Assembly (NCBI GenBank): GCA_034190875.2 | Contig: CM067344.1 | Coordinates: 28,671,877 to 28,735,876, forward strand | Origin: Urechis unicinctus | Taxonomy: Eukaryota > Annelida > Polychaeta > Xenopneusta > Urechidae | Reading direction: 5' to 3' | Length of the DNA: 64,000 nucleotides | Shown: positions 30,936 to 62,396 of the stretch, one piece after another | Numbering within the stretch: position 1 is the first letter of the stretch | Layout of the letters: each line of letters opens with the position of its first letter | Translations under genes and position numbers: made by a program | The notes under the pieces: model-generated | Database searches by the model: none | What the model saw: only the letters and a program-made list of their open reading frames with translations | What the model was told of the DNA's origin: nothing

Positions 30936-33185
30936 TTTAATTGAAACGTTGCATATTCTTGTTTTAAATAGATTATACTGGAGATCATACTTCTTGTGCC
31001 CGAGAAGTATTGCGACAAGAATAAATCATCAATGGCGGTGTATTTGCAGGAACTCATTTAAGAATAGCGAATTCATCTATTCTTCAAGAATACATGAAAG
31101 TAATCAGTGCAAATGTCGATGACCATCATAAACATAATGCGCGTCCAAAATGAGAGGAAGATATCGATCTGAAGAAGGATATATTAAAATCTTTTCCATC
31201 GTAATCTAATCAAACGACATTTATTTATCGATTCCATTTGATGCGTGCAAGCGTGATTACTTATGCTGCCAGGATATATCCTGGCCATAGAATTCTATTA
31301 ATCGCAGCCGGATTTGGTTTGTCGGGTTTGCTATGTAATATTATTCATTTTCAGTTGAGGCATGGGAATGTATGCTGCTCTCTACTACTGATTCAACTTG
31401 AGGTTGATGATGATATTAATACACGATCGCAATGTAATGGTAATGGTAAAATTGGGGTCGGGTGCATCCTCTTTTCGGAAATGGGACTGCTATTTAACCT
31501 AATCATCTTAGTCAGGGGAAGCTAGTCACGGTTCCACAACTGGGTGGGCGATGCAGTTTATCACTACGCCACGGGAATAGGCTTCACGATCATAAAACAA
31601 GCAGAACAGCGCAATGCGATATTACATGGATGCAAAATTCAGCCATCCTTTGTCTTATTTGCATAGATTCTGTCATTAAAAACGTCATGTCGTTATTTAT
31701 GATAACAAGGGTTTCTCATGTTATTTTATCGGCACTGAGAAGCGATTATCTTGATTAAAATGAAGTCAGATATTATCGCATAATATTGTCAATACCGTTC
31801 ATATTATACATCTACATGTATGTTTGAGAATTCCATCAGCATAAAAGCACCCAGTCTATAAACAACATAGGATCTTTTCTGTCGTATGTGGAATGTCGCA
31901 GCAACAAATATTAGGTTAGCTGCTAGGCCATAAAACACAAATTTGTGTCCCAAGCTTGATTGCACACAAAACGAAATGGCTGAAAGTCATGCATGTCACA
32001 TTAGTGACTAATGCAGATTGAATTATTTAATATGATTGATTCATTTGTCATTTATTATTAATTGAGGCAGTGCATCACTCTTTAAGCCAGACACGGTTGG
32101 CTCAAGCTAACATCGATGCCTTGCCGATGTGCATAGATGATTGCAAAACGCATGTATATATTGTAATAATGAATAGGAAGGCAATATTGTTTGACACGTA
32201 GAATGATAACAAAAAGCTAACATTTACATTCCGAATACGCATATAATGGAAGGCAATGTCAACGGCATGGAAAAAATACTGATGCTCCATCAGTTCTGAA
32301 TTTTGCAGAAGCGTTATGGCAGAAAACGATAGCCTCAGAATATTTGGTTCACTATTGTTGTCATATATGAGCTGGTTAAAATGTGTCATTGCTCAACCCT
32401 TACACGAAAAGAACAATGGCCTATTGAGATGGCGTTCGATCGGCACAATATATCGGAACTATGCATGAGATATTGATAAAAGAGAGCATAGAATCGTAAC
32501 GTACAGAAACCCCGCTACTTGGTCGATATTTTTCTACTTGATATAATACAGAACTCGACGTTGTCCGCAATGGACTAACGACATACGATTACAAAATAAA
32601 TCGTAGTGTTGCTCATTATCGCGAATAATGTAAGCCATGGTCCGTGGCTTACTTTTGCAGTTTGATGGAGCCGCTATTGCGAAACGAGGTTGTTTGTGCT
32701 CTGAAATGAAACGCGTGCACTGTTTTATATTGTTGGATTGACCATCAAGGAATACAATATATCTATAGGGCGTGTTTGAGCAGAGCATCAATGTCTGGAA
32801 TTGGTGGTTTAGAATCATTCGTAGAAGGCCAAGCAAAAGATCCCTCAGTTTTAAAACTCGGTCATCATAGCTGGAGTAACCTAGCAAAACATTTTACCGC
32901 CAAATAAATATTTTAAGGCATTTGAAAGAATTCATCGAGGTCCTGGTCTCACAGTGATTCATGTCGCGCTTCTATGACACACACCAAAAGGAAAACTAAA
33001 TGAACATCAAACTCTTTGAGTCAGTATGTTTTTCATAACAATGAAGTAGTTGAGTAAAGATTTGACAAAGAGTTTTTTTACGATTCACTGAAATAGTGAC
33101 GGCTGGCTGTATCGACAATTACTCAGCGCCAACACGTTCGTTATATAGCTAGCATATCACTGGCGTTTTATCTCTCCAACATATG
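30936..33185 (+). repeat. Higher-order repeat, copy B, second part
   Basis: Matches A 1,795-3,020 and C 45,770-46,963 plus 50,578-51,515. Includes about 1.2 kb (31,905-33,090) that copy A lacks but C keeps. Holds the uninterrupted TTA target (31,916-31,918) of the transposon found in copy C. Homology ends at the TCTCCAACATAT block near 33,185. Confidence 0.9.
31438..31590 (-). mobile_element. Partly deleted SINE-like element in copy B
   Basis: Same position in the unit as the elements at 2,269 and 46,301. It keeps the GTCGGGTGCATCC block and a worn tRNA-like head, and lacks the GGTTTAACGTC half. Confidence 0.5.
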
Positions 33186-44499: not shown

Positions 44500-46963
44500 A
44501 CAATACATCATCAGACGTGTATCTAACGAAGTTACCACCCCACGAGCTATGTCAGAATTCTCTTTCAGAAATAATATGTTTGATATCAATACTTTAACTC
44601 GGTGGATGGTTATGATATAGCCAGTAATGGTTGTTCCATTCATTGATCTGGTTTAATGTATCTATTGTGATCTGTTACCGGGCTAATCTGGTACATTATG
44701 CAGGAGTTGTTATTGCATGCTTCCAAGACTAAATGCGTCGTCATTTTACAGCAGCATCCATTAAGACTATCATTTGCAGTCTGGGTTGTGATAAATGATC
44801 TTTCCGAGGCGATTTCCGTAAGCCCGCGTAGCGCCCCCTCAGTGAGGCATTATGCGTGGACATCTAATATTATGGCTATTCACTGTTGGGCGACATCCAT
44901 TAAGACAAAAGTGTTGTTGGTTCTCTTTAAGCATTCAAGTCAATCCTACATTCGACTTCATTTCCATTCTGAAACTGAAATATAGGTTAAACGATTGGAT
45001 TTTGTTTTTAACCGCGGTAGTTGCTTTATTATGCTGCATGTTATTCATTATATCCGTAATTGCGAGACAAATACTGGCAATTTTCTACAATATCTACAAT
45101 AAACTGGTTAATATGTAGTTTCTAATGAAGAATGTCTACCCTACATAATCAAATGACGTGTTGTTACGACTGGGCGAAGCTGTCATCCAAGGGAGACTCC
45201 TTGTAATTGCTACACGGTGAATACTAGCAGCGGTAGTTTGCCACCTGATATGTAACCGCTCCATGGAAACCAAACGTTGAAGGTTTTCAGTATTTTAGTC
45301 ACTGCGCGGTGCTGTAGTCTCTAACAATAGATCCATCGCCATTGCTGTCGTCAGAAATGATGCTTGAGTTCTCGTTAGTCTCAGTTGTGTGTAATGTGGT
45401 AATTGATACAAAGAACCATGATGCCATCTTTTACCGATCCATATTTATTGAAATTGTCATGAGCGCAGTTTCCGCGTTAAACGTAGTAATATAGAAACAA
45501 AACGATCCCTGATTGCCTTGATTGTACAACTTTAAGCAATTTTATTAATTTAACCAATTAAGTACATTGCGTTCATAACAGTGAAATTATCGTTAAGGGC
45601 AGTCAATTGTGCATGTAATAGTTTCACATTCTTATCGGCTTCGCAACTGTCTTTGCTTCAGTTGGATCAGTAATGCCAGGACACTAGCTTCGCTAACGTT
45701 AGCTACATGCAGCTAATGAGTTCACCGAAACGGCACAGGGAAGCATGCAAGCCTATAGCTTCGAGGTCTTTAATTGAAACGTTGGATATTCTTGTCTCAA
45801 ACTGATTTTATTGGACATCATAATCCTTGTGCTTGAGAAATATTGCGACATGAATAAATCCTCAGTGGCGGTGTATTTGCAGGACCTCCCTTGAGAATAG
45901 CAAATTCATCTATGTTTCAAGAATACATGAAAGTAATCAGTGCAAATGTCGTTGACCATCATAAACATAATGTGCGTCCAGGGACAGAGAGGAAGACATC
46001 GATCTGAAGAAGGGTATATTAAACTCTTTTCCATCGTTATCTAAATAAATGACATTTATTAATCGATTCCATTTGATGCGTGCAAGCGTGATTACTAATG
46101 CAGCCAGGATATATACTAGGCATAGAATTCTATTAATCGCAGCCGGAATCGTTTTGTCTAGCTTGCTATGTAACATAATCAATTCGCATTTCAGGCATGG
46201 TAATGTATGCTGCTCTATGCTATTGAATCAACTTGAGGTTGATAGTGATATTGATAAAGTATACGATCGCAAAATAATGGTTATGGTAATGGTGATATTG
46301 GGGTTTAACGTCACTGTCAACAACGCGGAGATATCGCGACGGTGATGGATGAGGATTATTGTGATGCTTGGACAGCTCTCCTAAAGTGCCATTACCCAAC
46401 TCGGGATGCGAAACCCACGCCGCTTGGATAAAGGTTCACAACGGTAACATTAAGCTACCGGGTCGGGTGCATCCCCTTTCGGATATGGGACCGCCATTTA
46501 ACGTAATCATCTTAGTCAGGGGGAGCCAGTCAGGTTTCTATCTTGGTAACGAACCCTCAACCTGTGGGTCGAAAGGCGCTGTTTACCACTACACCACTGC
46601 AATAGGCTACACGATCATAAACAAGCAGAACAGCGCAATGCGATATTACATGGATGCAATATTCAGTCATCCTGTGTCTCTGTGAAATGATTAGTCTTAT
46701 TTGCATAGATTCTGCTCTTAAAAACGTCGTTGTTAATGATACAAAGGGTTTCTCGTGTTATTTTATCAGCCCCGAGAAGCGATTTTCTTGATTAAAAAGA
46801 AAGACATAGATATTATCGTTTAAAATTGTCAATACGGTCCGTGTTATACATCTACATGTATGTTTGAGAATTCCATCAGCCAAAACGACTGTCACCCAGT
46901 CTATGAACAACATAGGATCTTCGCTGTCGCATGTGGAAAGCCGCAGCAACAAATATTAGGTTA
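44500..46963 (+). repeat. Higher-order repeat, copy C, first part
   Basis: 44,828 onward matches A from 420 and B from 19,067; 45,770-46,960 matches A 1,795-2,930 and B 30,939-31,918. It ends at the TTA target site of the transposon. Confidence 0.9.
46301..46610 (-). mobile_element. tRNA-headed SINE-like element in copy C
   Basis: Close match to the element at 2,269-2,605, with the GGTTTAACGTC block and the tRNA-like head (minus strand, about 46,595-46,545). Same position in the unit. Confidence 0.6.
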
Positions 46964-47121
46964 TAGGCGAGTCAAAGTAAGGTTTGACCCCCAAAAAATT
47001 GCAAGAAAAGCTTTTTTTGTCTTTTTGTGTTAAATTAGCTGTACTTAAGCGCATCCTAAAAGTTTACCAAATTTGAGCCACCGGAAAGTGGTGAAATAAC
47101 ATAATATCCAATATGGCCGCC
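46964..47121 (+). repeat. Left terminal inverted repeat
   Basis: Imperfect inverted match to 50,410-50,577. The strongest blocks are at 46,981-47,010, 47,058-47,071, 47,082-47,092 and 47,112-47,121. Confidence 0.85.
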
Positions 47122-47519
47122 ATTGAATTATGAATGTACAGCAAACTTTTTAATGGTTGGTTTTAGACCCCATAAATGTATTACAAACATATATAAATGT
47201 GATACCTTAGATTCAAATAAGGTTATGATGAATTCACCTGGATGTCCCTATGACGTAGTATTGCATCATCATGGCGTAGTGGGTTGCTGAATAGATCAGG
47301 ACCGCCAGAATTGGTAGAAAACCAACATTTCGGCTCTTGATAATCAATCAGATGTACATACACAAGGAACCACAACTTGGAAGGGCTATTGAACCATCTA
47401 CGTCATGGTCATATGCCATACGTCACTCATCATAAATTACCAAAATGTCCCAAATATTGACATAGTACACACCTGAATTTTCCTATCAAGTTCAAGTGGC
47501 ATTCACACAATATAATTGT

Positions 47520-49187
47520 TCAAAACACAGCATGGTTATTATCATCACAATCTTCTTCCTCGGAACCGTCTATGGAAGAATCACTATTATGCGGATTGTA
47601 ACATGACTCAGCTTGGCAGGGTCCACAAGCAGAAGTACATGGAAGACCGTACTTCCTGCAACTACATCGAGTATTACTACAACCTGTTGTACAGTTACAA
47701 TGGATAACCTTGAGAAGCCTTTCTGGAGCCGCTTTCTGGTCAGTCATAACAGGTAACAAAATGTTGTCTTCACACTTCCAACCCCAGTCCTTTGGGTCCA
47801 CGTTTTCATCCTTTCCCATCCACACCATGATCTGATAAAATGAACGTTCAGAGTGGAACTTTGCCGCAGATTCCGTTGGGGGCAATTTGTCGGGCTTCAC
47901 AAATGATTTAGCAGATGAAACCTTTTTAGCAAGCAATGTATTTCTAAGGTTTACCAGAGATGTGCCAGCTTTTCCTCCAAACAAAGAAACAAAGACTTTG
48001 CATCTTGAATCAACTATTGGTCCCTTGATAAGAAATCCTCCATTCTGCCAGAGGAAAAGACGGTATTTATTTCAAAAGACACAAGCGGGTGTGATTTCGT
48101 TTGTCGTCTCTGATGTTCATTGTCCTTGATGCTAGGCTCTTCACTGCATCCGTCAAAAACTACTGTGGCTTGTCCATACTTGGAAAGGGTGAGATTGGCA
48201 TGCTCCTCGGCAATTTCCTCGTAGGTCATCCCTTTTTTCCAAGACAGACGGTGAAGTAAGGAGCCTCCATCAAGCACAAAATGTTCGGAATTTGGCGTCG
48301 AATCTGTTAGAACGGCCTTGCTGGAGCTGGAGGATTCATTTGCGTAATCCCGTAGAGCATCAGCCAACTGTGGCTTGTCAGCCTATTGGAACACATGTTT
48401 TGCCGCGAATAGGGCAGGAGGATATGGACTAAGTTCGTAGTCCATGATATCTTGCAGTGTCAAGTCGCCAGCTTGTGAAACTACAAGACATCTCTGGAAC
48501 AGGAGTTCAGAATTTATCATTTGTTCGGTATTCACTTTCACTGACGATGAGTCACCAAGAGTTTTGGCTTTGTCCTTTCGTTTAAAGGAATAAGTGAATA
48601 TTGGCTGCCCAACCATTTTTTGTACTATGGCCTTCCCGACAGCTCCATTTTCATGTACATTGACATCTGCGTTGGCCACTACACCAGTCACAACATTTCT
48701 TAATGAAGAATCCTCAGCAAATGGATTGCAGTCAACTAATGTTTGCATCAGTTTAGTACTGTCCGCATGATCACGTTGCATCCTTGGCACTGTGGCGTCT
48801 TTGTGCTGTTCACTTGAGGTAAATGATTGTTTAGAGAACTCTTGCATCGCAAGGTTGTACGCAGATGACACGGATGATGACAGTGTCCAGATGGTCCTCT
48901 GTCATGCCACTTCCTCTGGTTAGACCACCGCTACTTTGAAGGGAACGCATGAGAGTCTGTTCAATAGTTAGATCCGATCCCAAACCTGCCCAGAACTGGT
49001 CTGTCCTCCTAATAACATGTAGGCCGTTTTCAAATTTTGTAACAATGTCTGGATGCTTGTGACCTAGTTCATTCATGCACTGTAGGTAGAGGTATGTAGA
49101 CTTAACATAATTGAAATGTCCAGCAGCTGCGAATATCGGAATGCAATCAGACACTGCACTGAGATGCATTCTCCAGTCGCCTTAGCG
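47520..49187 (-). pseudogene. CXC (tesmin/TSO1-like) domain transposon protein, decayed
   Basis: Minus strand, read in pieces: 49,181-48,876 (GDWRMHLSAV, FAAAGHFNYVKS, LHVIRRTDQFWAGL, SDLTIEQTLMRSL, GGLTRGSGM); +frameshift; 48,871-48,383 (IFTYSFKRKDKAK, YELSPYPPALFAAKHV); in-frame TAG; 48,380-48,015 (MTYEEIAEEHANLTL, ATVVFDG); frame change; about 48,010-47,520 (FHSERSFYQIMVWMG, then IHCNCTTGCSNTRCSCRKYG, PCTSACGPCQAESC). The last part is a cysteine-rich CXC-type motif near the C-terminus. From memory, this layout is shared by many uncharacterised multicopy proteins of aquatic animals, where a nuclease-like (PIN-like) segment lies between the third and last pieces; that segment is missing here. 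Role in transposition is inferred only from its position inside the inverted repeats. Confidence 0.7.
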
Positions 49188-49189
49188 AT

Positions 49190-50409
49190 CAACCGAGACA
49201 GTCCTTAGTAAGAGCATGAATATAATGAAATCATATAAAACACAAGAGTGTGCAACCACAAGTGGGCACAGCTTATTCGCAGATGATGGACCCTTCCCTT
49301 CCGATTAATCCCATATACAGGGACGGTATATATTTTCATGGGTAGAACCCTTTTAAACACGTGATAGCACTGAAACAAATTATCTACAATTTTCGCTGCT
49401 TTTGAAATGAGCAGCTTCCAATAGCAGGCTTCTGGCAATTTTGAATATTTCTAGCTTTGTCTTCCCATATAATGTAGGCATGCCATTGAACCACATGGTT
49501 TCACTTTCATTATGACTATTCTATCTACTCAGGCCTGAAATGGGCCTATTTTAATCTTGTTTCACCTACCTTCAGGGTCAGGAGATGCAGAAGATAATTG
49601 GTAATATCAGAGTTGTCTACATGATTAGTTTGTTTTTGTTGATTTCAGGAATATTGTGTTAACAAGAGATAATGAAATAATGAGTTGCTTTTGTTTTGAT
49701 CTTAAGTCTTTGATGAAAGAATAGATGGCAGCACTGTAATCATATGGAGAGCTAATTAGTACAAAATTACATTGAAAATCAATATTTACCTGTATCCTTA
49801 TCCTTGTTAGTCATTATTATAAGGGCTTGTATGCTGGCAGTAACAACCAAATGCCAATTAGAAATGTGATTGCTTTAGATAACATGGGCCGGTATGGAGG
49901 GGGAGTGGCCTCATTGGAGGTTGGCGGGGTGGTGTGGGGGTCAGCTAGGATTACTCCTAACGAACAGGGCACCTTCATCAGAACTCTGTCTCAATGACAC
50001 TGAGCTGAAATGAAAAAAAACCCAACTCCTAAAGCATGCTTACAACAGAGTTTTCGTGTGAGAAATATCAAATCATGAACCAAGGAGACATTTCAAACAA
50101 ATACCAAACAGGGGTAAAAATCCTGAAATTGACCAATTTTAGGGAACCTTTGCTATCTTTATGTTCAGATGTTGCAATTCCTTAATTAATTGGGAAATAT
50201 AAGGTTTCCCTAATATGTACCCAAAATACCAGTTTTGGGGTAGGGTTGCCCCTATTGCACCCCAATCGGGATGTCACACACGAAAGAAACCAGTTTCAGG
50301 TGAAAGTTTGACCTCAAAAACATTAGAAAACATATTTACATAATCAGTTTTGGGTGAAAAATGGCCGAGTTATGGACAGCCAAAAATATTCAAGGATCTA
50401 AAAAAATTT
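49190..50409. other. Non-coding interior of the CXC transposon
   Basis: No further coding segment recognised. A short open frame at 49,438-49,205 (minus) could be worn N-terminal sequence of the CXC protein but lacks a motif. Confidence 0.4.
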
Positions 50410-50577
50410 GGCGGCCATCTTGGAAATTGCCTAATTAACCCACTTTCCGGTCATCCGAGTTTGGTAAACTTTTAGTATGTTAATCTACAGAAGTTCAGGA
50501 ACCAAAAACAACCAAGAAACGTTTTCTTGCAATTTTTTGGGGGTTGACCCCTTTTTTTCCATATATTGACCCGACTA
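50410..50577 (-). repeat. Right terminal inverted repeat
   Basis: Inverted counterpart of 46,964-47,121, ending TTGACCCGACTA before the TTA duplication. Confidence 0.85.
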
Positions 50578-53500
50578 TTAGCAGCTAGGCCATAAAACAC
50601 ACATTTATGTCCCAAGCTTGAACGCGCACAAAAAGAAATGTCTAAAAGTCATGCATGCCGCCTTAGTGATGTAAAGTGACTGATGCAGATTGAATTATAT
50701 AATATGATTGATTCATTTGCCATTTATATTTAATTGAGGCAGTGCATCCCTGTTTAAGCCATACACGGATAGCTCAAGCGAACTTCGATGCTTTGCCGAA
50801 TGATGAGCATGTCCATGGAGATTGGGTTTTTTTTATACAAAACCATTGTGCATAGATGATTGCAAAACGCATGTATATATTGTAATAATGACCAGAAAGG
50901 CAATATTGTTTGACGCATAGAATGATAACAAAAAGTTAATATTTGCATTCCGAATACGCATATAATGGAAGGCAATGTCAACATCATAGACAAAATACTG
51001 ATGCTCCATCAATTTACTGTAAGTTGCAGAAGCGTTATGGCAGAAAACGATAGCCTCGGAATATTTGGTTCACTATTGTTGTCATATATGAGCTGGTTAA
51101 AATGTGTCATTGCTCAACCCTTACACGAAAAGGACAATGGCATATTGAGATGGCGTTCGATCTGCACAATATATCTGAGCTAAGCATGGGATATTGATAA
51201 AGAGAGCATAGAATAGTAATGTACAGACACCCCGTTACTTGGTCGATATTATTCTGCTCGATAAATACAGAACTCGACGTTTTCCGCAGTGATTTATGTC
51301 GCGCTTCTATGACACACACCACAAGGAAAACTAAATGTACATCAAACTCTTTGAGTCAGTATGTGTTTCATAACAATGAAGTAGTTGAGTAAAGAGTTGA
51401 CAAAGAGTTTGTTACGATTCACTGCAATAGTGACGGCCGGCTGTATCCTCAATTACTCAGCGCCAACACGTTCGTTATATAGCTAGCATATCACTGGCGT
51501 TTTATCTCTCCAACATGTATAAGATAGCAAAGCAAAGCTAAGATCACACAATTTCTGACAATAACTGTATACGCGAAATCAACAAAAGCCTGCTGATGGT
51601 TGTGGTACGCACTTAGCTCCTGTGGGTATAATACGCTGCACATATTATATTACAAACATATTTATCATGTAGACAGAATATGTAACCAGCGGTTGTTTTG
51701 ATTGGCATCAATATACTGTTTGCGTTATTCATAATGGAATTTGATTATTAATTTTTCATTAAAGTTTATATTTTTTCTTGTGGTTCCGATAAGATACATT
51801 TGGCTCCCACTAATAGTCACCATGTTGTTTCAGACCTACCGTTTCTGTATCTTCCTGTTCACCCAACAATATCATATTTGTTATTAGACTTCGTAATATG
51901 TTATGGTGCCATACATATTACGCATATAAGGTTGCTTTGAATGCAGGACGCGATAAACATGAAAAGGTTAGTATATCACTTGTTTATGACAGATCAAGAT
52001 TGATTAGGAATGTAGTTAGGTTGGGATGTTCGGCAGTGAAATTGCCTGTACTACGACAGCCCCCATCTAGTATTTCTCGAATATAGCAGACTGAATCGAG
52101 CAGCAAATATCATAATTGGATTACATAACTTTAATGCAAAATGCTTAAAAGTGGCATAGACATAATAGAACGGGTTCAAAGGCGAGCACTAAAGCTCGTC
52201 ACTGGTATGTGTGATTAAACTTACGAAATTAGGTTGCGTTCGTTATAGCTGACATATATAAAAGCATTGCGTTCCCTTGTGAACCATTTGCAATCATAGA
52301 AGATGGAGAGATGGTTATTAACTTTATCCGCTACGCAGTACTGAAAACAGATGACTCTAAGGACATCCATTCATTTTAGTCAAACCTAGGGTAATGCTGG
52401 AGCAAAAGAAACTTCTTTCAAATAATTAAAACCTTATGGAACATTTTGCCAGGCGGATTACCTTGTTTTAAGAGCTGTCGCTCTTATGTGCTTTCCATGT
52501 ATCCACGGACAGCTTTTTAGAGATTACAATTCCCTCAATTCATATCCCACAGTATTAAACTAATGCCAAACATCCATAGCGTCAATCCTTTGTCAATGTC
52601 AGTATAGATTAATTGGACGTTTGTTTACTGGTCATAAGGTAAAGTTTGCTGGTCTGTCATTCATCGACCGCAGTGCGTAGTAGGGGTTCTTCAATAAACG
52701 TTGTCATTTCTAGGCTTCATACTCACTGATGCAACAACTAAATCGCTAGACAGTATTAACTCGTTCCTAAAAAAAACATCTGTTTCGGATTCACGTTCGA
52801 TGATCCCATTTTGAAACTTGTGTACAAAACTCTATGGTTCTGTTTTGTAGTATCATGCAATAAAATACAGCACTGACTACGATGTTTACAAGACATGGAA
52901 GCAATGTAACTCTGCATTGAATTTAACACAACATGCATAAATCGATTGGGTCGCTGAGAGGCTTCGAAACACAAAAAGCAGCATCCACAATATATTCAAT
53001 ATTCTACATTGTAATATTCTTAATCAAAACGTGACAAGATGACTAACCACCGTTCAATACAGGGACGATGAGATTGTGTAAAAGCCACCAAGATCCGTCG
53101 CATTATTTTCGTTACCCAAGTTTATCAGCTGCACAAAATCGCCACTTAGATGCATTCATACATATCGACGTGTTAAGCCTGAGCACTGGCGAGAACAGTC
53201 TTTACTAGTTCAGGAGTCTCTGCATGTGACAAACGATAATAGTTGATGTTCCGTTTGAACTTATCTTCGCGCCATCATACACATTACCAGGGTTAATGAT
53301 GACCCGATCCTTCTGATTACTGTAACCATATGTGAACCAATGCCATACCCATAGTTTACTGAATCACTACTATTCATGCACTACATGTGCTAAGCTCGTG
53401 AAAACTACGATATGACTTGATTAGTGAGTGCCTCGATAGAGCGTAAATGCTAAAGCCTTAGCATACAAATCGTGAAAGAAGGGATATATACAGACTATCA

Positions 53501-61595: not shown

Positions 61596-62210
61596 GTAAG
61601 TCTAATTTAACTTAAGAGCAACATTTTCTAAGGTATCTCCGTTGTTATGGCTTACAATAATATGCCATGATTAGTGGCGATTAATTTGATCAGCAACATA
61701 GTTCTGACAGCACAAGACCCCGAAAACACAATAACTTAGGACTTTTGAAAAAGGAAAGCGATATTGCCAGACGGTATTAACTCGCTCTTGCATAATGTCA
61801 CAGTTTGACATAAGCCTACAAACCCAGCATTTTCTTGACGGTTTAACAAGGTCACATAGTGATAGTGCTTCAAATCTTACACAAAATGCATATCGTATTT
61901 GTCACTAAATAAAATCTCGGACTTTTCGCATTATTTCTATCGTCGCGTTTTTATACATGTGACCTATCAAACATTTACAATGAATGCTCCGTTTTAATAT
62001 AGTTAGCGTCATACACACCTTATTATGTTTGATGAAGACCAGATGCCTGTGATATTTTACATGATGTAAATCAAGTCCTTACACATAAGTTGCTCCATCC
62101 CAAATGACTTTTATCCATTCACCTCACGTCATTACAGCTGTATTGCTGGATCTACGCGTTTGTCAGGGAAACATTATTACCAAAGCAGTCAGATACAAAT
62201 AGAAAAACAA

Positions 62211-62396
62211 GGGAATATACAGTCTATCAATTTACCTCAAGGGAATATACAGTTTATCAATTTACCTCAAGGGAATATACAGTTTATCAATCTACCTCAA
62301 GGGAATATACAGTCTATCAATTTACCTCAAGGGAATATACAGTCTATCAATTTACCTCAAGGGAATATACAGTCTATCAATTTACCTCAAGGGAAG
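62211..62396 (+). repeat. 30-bp minisatellite, six units
   Basis: Units start at 62,211, 62,241, 62,271, 62,301, 62,331 and 62,361, plus a partial unit (GGGAA) at 62,391. They differ at only two positions (AGTCTATC/AGTTTATC; TTTACC/TCTACC). The unit is a multiple of three, so one frame reads GNIQSINLPQ repeatedly. Copies A (about 7,150-7,185) and C (about 53,485-53,520) hold a single diverged unit in the same context, showing the ancestral state. Confidence 0.92.

Follow-up and report, generated by a model that had tools for sequence, protein, structure and literature searches.

The element and its empty site

The 64,000-bp stretch of Urechis unicinctus DNA analysed here (the window) contains a DNA transposon of 3,614 bp at position 46964–50577, bounded by imperfect inverted repeats of about 160–170 bp and flanked on both sides by the target-site duplication TTA (46961–46963 to the left and 50578–50580 to the right). 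The left terminal inverted repeat, imperfect and about 160 bp long (46964–47123, plus strand), begins at 46964 with the tip TAGGCGAGTCAAAG, and the right terminal inverted repeat (50408–50577, plus strand) ends in ...TTGACCCGACTA, the last base of which is 50577. The terminal arms score 104 when aligned, whereas 1,000 shuffles gave no score above 36. When 1,000 random frames of 3,614 bp were drawn from the window, the top score (98) came from a frame covering the element 26 bp out of register; with this frame set aside, the best frame elsewhere in the window scored 71.

A paralogous site with one TTA (31916–31918) is empty. It aligns to the left flank of the element with 664 of 745 aligned bases identical plus 226 gap positions, and to the right flank with 596 of 654 aligned bases identical plus 61 gap positions. 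An earlier note on this DNA had proposed a TIR transposon of this length with TTA on both sides, and had taken this empty site as proof of its borders; borders and length are right to the base, and the matching flanks confirm both ends. The empty site stems from a set of diverged paralogous modules located at 1593–2940, 30936–32572 and 45568–46963 plus 50578–51291. The module near 2940 was considered as a second empty site and rejected, as it diverges before the site. The window also contains a minisatellite at 62208–62395 (30-bp unit, 6.3 copies, 97% matches).

The coding remnants of the element are all on the minus strand. Read in that direction, they begin with a region running from GDWRMHL to DQFWAGLGSDLTIEQ (48894–49199, GDW start at 49181; 89% to the genomic copy L029 by tblastn), followed by a remnant from between the transposase-like part and the nuclease (48509–48886; tblastn 94% to L029) and by the first part of a FEN/XPG-like nuclease (48020–48505), which contains an in-frame stop and retains the LDGG and VVFDG...K..RR motifs. 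A further remnant (47619–48017; tblastn 94% to L029) leads from the end of the nuclease region into a CXC-like tail, and the cysteine-rich, CXC-like protein end, HCNCTTGCSNTRCSC...CYNP, is found at 47592–47702. Two deletion junctions can be placed. At 48019–48020 a stretch of 417–445 bp, present in 20 of 20 copies fetched from the genome (see below), is absent from the window; it encodes the core of the nuclease domain, including HGDAD, GEDTDLL and GCDSTSRIYGIGKK, so that the 445-bp deletion takes out the HGDAD, EDTDLL and GCDSTS...GIGK motifs. At 49191–49192 a deletion of 2,160 bp, relative to a long copy on C9, has removed the upstream transposase-like region. Judged from its sequence, the window copy derives from a longer form by two deletions and is predicted to be non-autonomous, the nuclease that it once encoded appears FEN/XPG-like with its core now deleted, and the CXC-like stretch reads as the end of a larger, element-encoded protein.

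The earlier note had seen only debris of a CXC-domain protein in the element, and had tied that protein to it. The tie holds, whereas the label is weak: a cysteine-rich end is present, but its match to Pfam TCR (E 2.2; 9.1 bits, spanning 3–36 of 38 profile positions) is below the cut-off of 23.5 bits, and the tail thus lacks the TCR match over the cut-off by which Tesmin/TSO1 CXC proteins are recognised.

Copies in the genome and their target duplications

When the left 160 bp was compared with the 1.19-Gb genome, as the earlier note had suggested, 556 first-look candidates were obtained, 40 of which were scored, and all 40 had 98–100% identity. A 28-bp pattern of the left tip occurred 182 times in the genome, and the reversed control pattern did not occur (0 matches). 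The left end is therefore present in many copies. From the surroundings of 20 of the 40 scored left-end copies 10 kb each was fetched, and the elements found there measured 3,376 to 4,080 bp. Over shared bases, the window copy has 99.58% and 99.50% identity to its two nearest relatives among them, which suggests recent movement.

Target duplications were counted in 21 copies with both tips, i.e., 18 of the 20 fetched copies, the window copy and two long copies (see below); L022 and L024, in which the right end is altered or missing, and a long copy on C4 with truncated ends were left out. A duplication of 3 bp was found in 18 of the 21 copies and one of 4 bp in a single copy (L019), while two copies (L010 and L026) had none. 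The 18 three-base duplications comprised 13 different sequences. The variation among the other copies indicates that the TTA of the window copy is not a target preference. Matches to the encoded protein were also found near the terminal repeats: 50 of 144 were within 7 kb of a TIR hit, where 0.15 were expected from shifted positions, and the count is a lower bound, 80 TIR hits having been scored.

Longer copies, the upstream region and the nuclease

Three long copies were chosen via a protein search, and each contains more upstream coding sequence. Two have both tips and measure 6,290 bp (TGA duplication) and 6,386 bp (TAT duplication), while the third has truncated ends. The extra DNA of the long copies, about 2.2 kb, encodes about 720 residues of an upstream, transposase-like region. 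The 2,160-bp segment that is missing from the window relative to the 6,290-bp copy (at 49191/49192) accounts for most of a 726-aa open frame and includes cysteine-rich motifs recognised by eye as well as the motifs ADNVD, TFDQPL and GSFHTLMN. This segment had no match in 17 of the 20 fetched short copies, and in L018, L026 and L028 153–195 bp of one end is retained, which implies at least two deletion forms. In L029 the C-terminal part of the upstream region and the GDWRMHL region are joined in one frame. The predicted protein order, transposase-like region, nuclease and CXC-like end, can be read directly from the DNA, although the frame is interrupted in each of the three long copies examined. 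The earlier note had suggested a transposon group whose transposase is not of a recognised DDE type. This is unsupported, as longer copies bounded by the same terminal repeats do contain the transposase-like region deleted here. The note had also named full-length relatives with a standard transposase instead of the CXC frame as evidence against its proposal; the long relatives do hold a further transposase-like region, but alongside the CXC-like end and not in its place.

The upstream region of the family had no Pfam match over the cut-off; the 726-aa frame did not match DUF6589, the match of L029 to DUF6589 (E 0.021) was below the cut-off, and a profile of the upstream region gave no sensible match in the PDB. 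A distant second family is represented by L030 (G000:C3:51039800-51047000), in which an open frame of 983 aa adjoins a nuclease frame of 456 aa. The 983-aa frame matches DUF6589 with an E value of 7.2e-9, which is over the cut-off, and the upstream regions of the two families are 25% identical. DUF6589, which we take to be the Academ transposase, was not mentioned in the literature searched. No long terminal inverted repeat was found around L030 within the 7.2 kb fetched. The genome has at least 70 matches to DUF6589 (102 scored of 253 candidates), compared to none in 14 control genomes; many of them span only profile positions of about 250 to 405 and perhaps represent further Academ-like families.

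The 456-aa nuclease frame of L030, of which the genome contains many nearly identical copies, is 25% identical to the nuclease of the window element's family. It retains the acidic positions and the K..RR motif and is without the CXC-like tail. The motifs common to both families are DG, FD.Y.P.K..RR, H..AD, DTD and FTGCD.TS...GK, and presumably resemble those of FEN1. A profile made from the two nuclease sequences matched solely Exonuclease 1 in the PDB at E <= 10 (three distinct sequences, E 0.14–0.15), with two motifs in register. The order of motifs is thus shared with the FEN1/EXO1/XPG superfamily at very low overall similarity, and with such weak profile scores the argument for the nuclease rests on the motifs and on the absence of other matches. 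Searches with single nuclease sequences gave nothing useful and no relative, a scan of viral contigs confirmed none of 55 pattern matches as a relative, and an AlphaFold model of the 121-aa nuclease part left in the window was unusable (pLDDT 43.9). A number of Pfam matches below the cut-off were dismissed as chance, i.e., Mn_catalase (E 0.016 and 0.0026), RPW8 (0.0044), PIN-like_DDX60 (0.18), DUF1441 (0.08), DUF681 (0.048), COG7 (0.06) and NorB (0.0089).

Relation to Academ and alternative readings

Very probably, the element belongs to an AcademX-type family of DNA transposons, and the copy in the window is a non-autonomous one, shortened by deletion. The nuclease of AcademX is of the XPG type. 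In the available text of PMC10045372, which does not name the XPG type, AcademX has target duplications of 3 or 4 bp and AcademH of 9 or 10 bp, a difference that is seemingly tied to the encoded nuclease or helicase. Inverted repeats, duplications of 3 and rarely 4 bp and a nuclease, as given for AcademX in that text, are also found in the family of the window element, which, set beside the published description, fits a new family of a known, Academ-like kind. As the nuclease and the 3- or 4-bp duplications are published AcademX traits, and the transposase-like part is deleted in the window copy, no evidence was obtained for a new group without a DDE enzyme. The window copy itself differs from AcademX in having neither the transposase-like region nor the nuclease core. 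AcademH belongs to the same superfamily but is described there with a helicase and duplications of 9–10 bp, whereas duplications in the present family are 3–4 bp and no helicase was matched by Pfam in the pieces scanned. Among molluscs, Academ is found mostly in bivalves according to the portion of PMC10294476 that was available, and the mean length of 5,565 bp given there is near that of the long copies (6.3–6.4 kb). The same portion includes Academ in a count of 17 superfamilies that possess DDE/D domains, and Academ is similarly listed as encoding a DDD/E transposase in the part of PMC9587614 that was available. The CXC-like tail is the one mildly unusual feature of the family.

The longer form, of about 6.3 kb, encodes on the minus strand a transposase-like region with cysteine-rich motifs, followed by the FEN/XPG-like nuclease and, at the end, the CXC-like tail. 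The short relatives have lost the transposase-like part, and the window copy the nuclease core as well. The short copies are presumably mobilised in trans by the protein of the long ones, a putative DDE/D enzyme that would work by cut and paste with a 3-bp stagger, while the nuclease would process ends or flaps.

Other readings can be considered. First, the family may be a distinct Academ lineage, in which the nuclease has gained a CXC-like DNA-binding tail and helps, alongside the transposase, to cut or process the ends, so that the nuclease half is selected for in the short copies; this is rather unlikely. Second, another superfamily with 3-bp duplications, e.g., Zator, for which such duplications are also given in the available text of PMC10045372, may have acquired an XPG-like nuclease. 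This is unlikely, as the combination of a nuclease with 3–4 bp duplications matches the description of AcademX in the same text and no other transposase family was matched in Pfam.

Third, the nuclease-CXC protein may itself be the transposase, a cutter of the FEN/XPG type in a new group without a DDE enzyme. In its favour, the nuclease half occurs without the upstream region in every one of the 20 short copies fetched, the nuclease motifs are well preserved, and the upstream region, with neither Pfam nor PDB support, is only putatively of the DDE type. Furthermore, one match in the protein search that was not among the fetched copies has an uninterrupted frame of 691 aa, and the nuclease half may thus still be produced from some of the short copies. 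Against this, a conserved upstream region lies between the same terminal repeats in the long copies, and the distant L030 retains the same order together with a DUF6589 match. Moreover, the 20 short copies have no frame longer than 529 aa, compared to about 704 for their coding part, and five of them (L009, L011, L015, L023, and L024) have a stop in common, which suggests that they were mobilised by a protein made elsewhere. A nuclease acting as the transposase is therefore very unlikely. Last, a PIF/Harbinger-type element with TWA target duplications, to which the TTA of the window copy would conform, can be dismissed since the duplications are varied, with TTA or TAA in just three of the 18 three-base duplications, and no Harbinger-type Pfam match was found in the pieces scanned.

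An AcademX-type element with a deleted window copy thus remains the preferred reading, and one candidate for a new class of transposons is thereby removed. The empty site within the same window provides a clean demonstration of the 3-bp duplication. The CXC-like fragment is explained as a nuclease tail encoded by a transposon, and this may spare annotators from miscalling such fragments as host genes.
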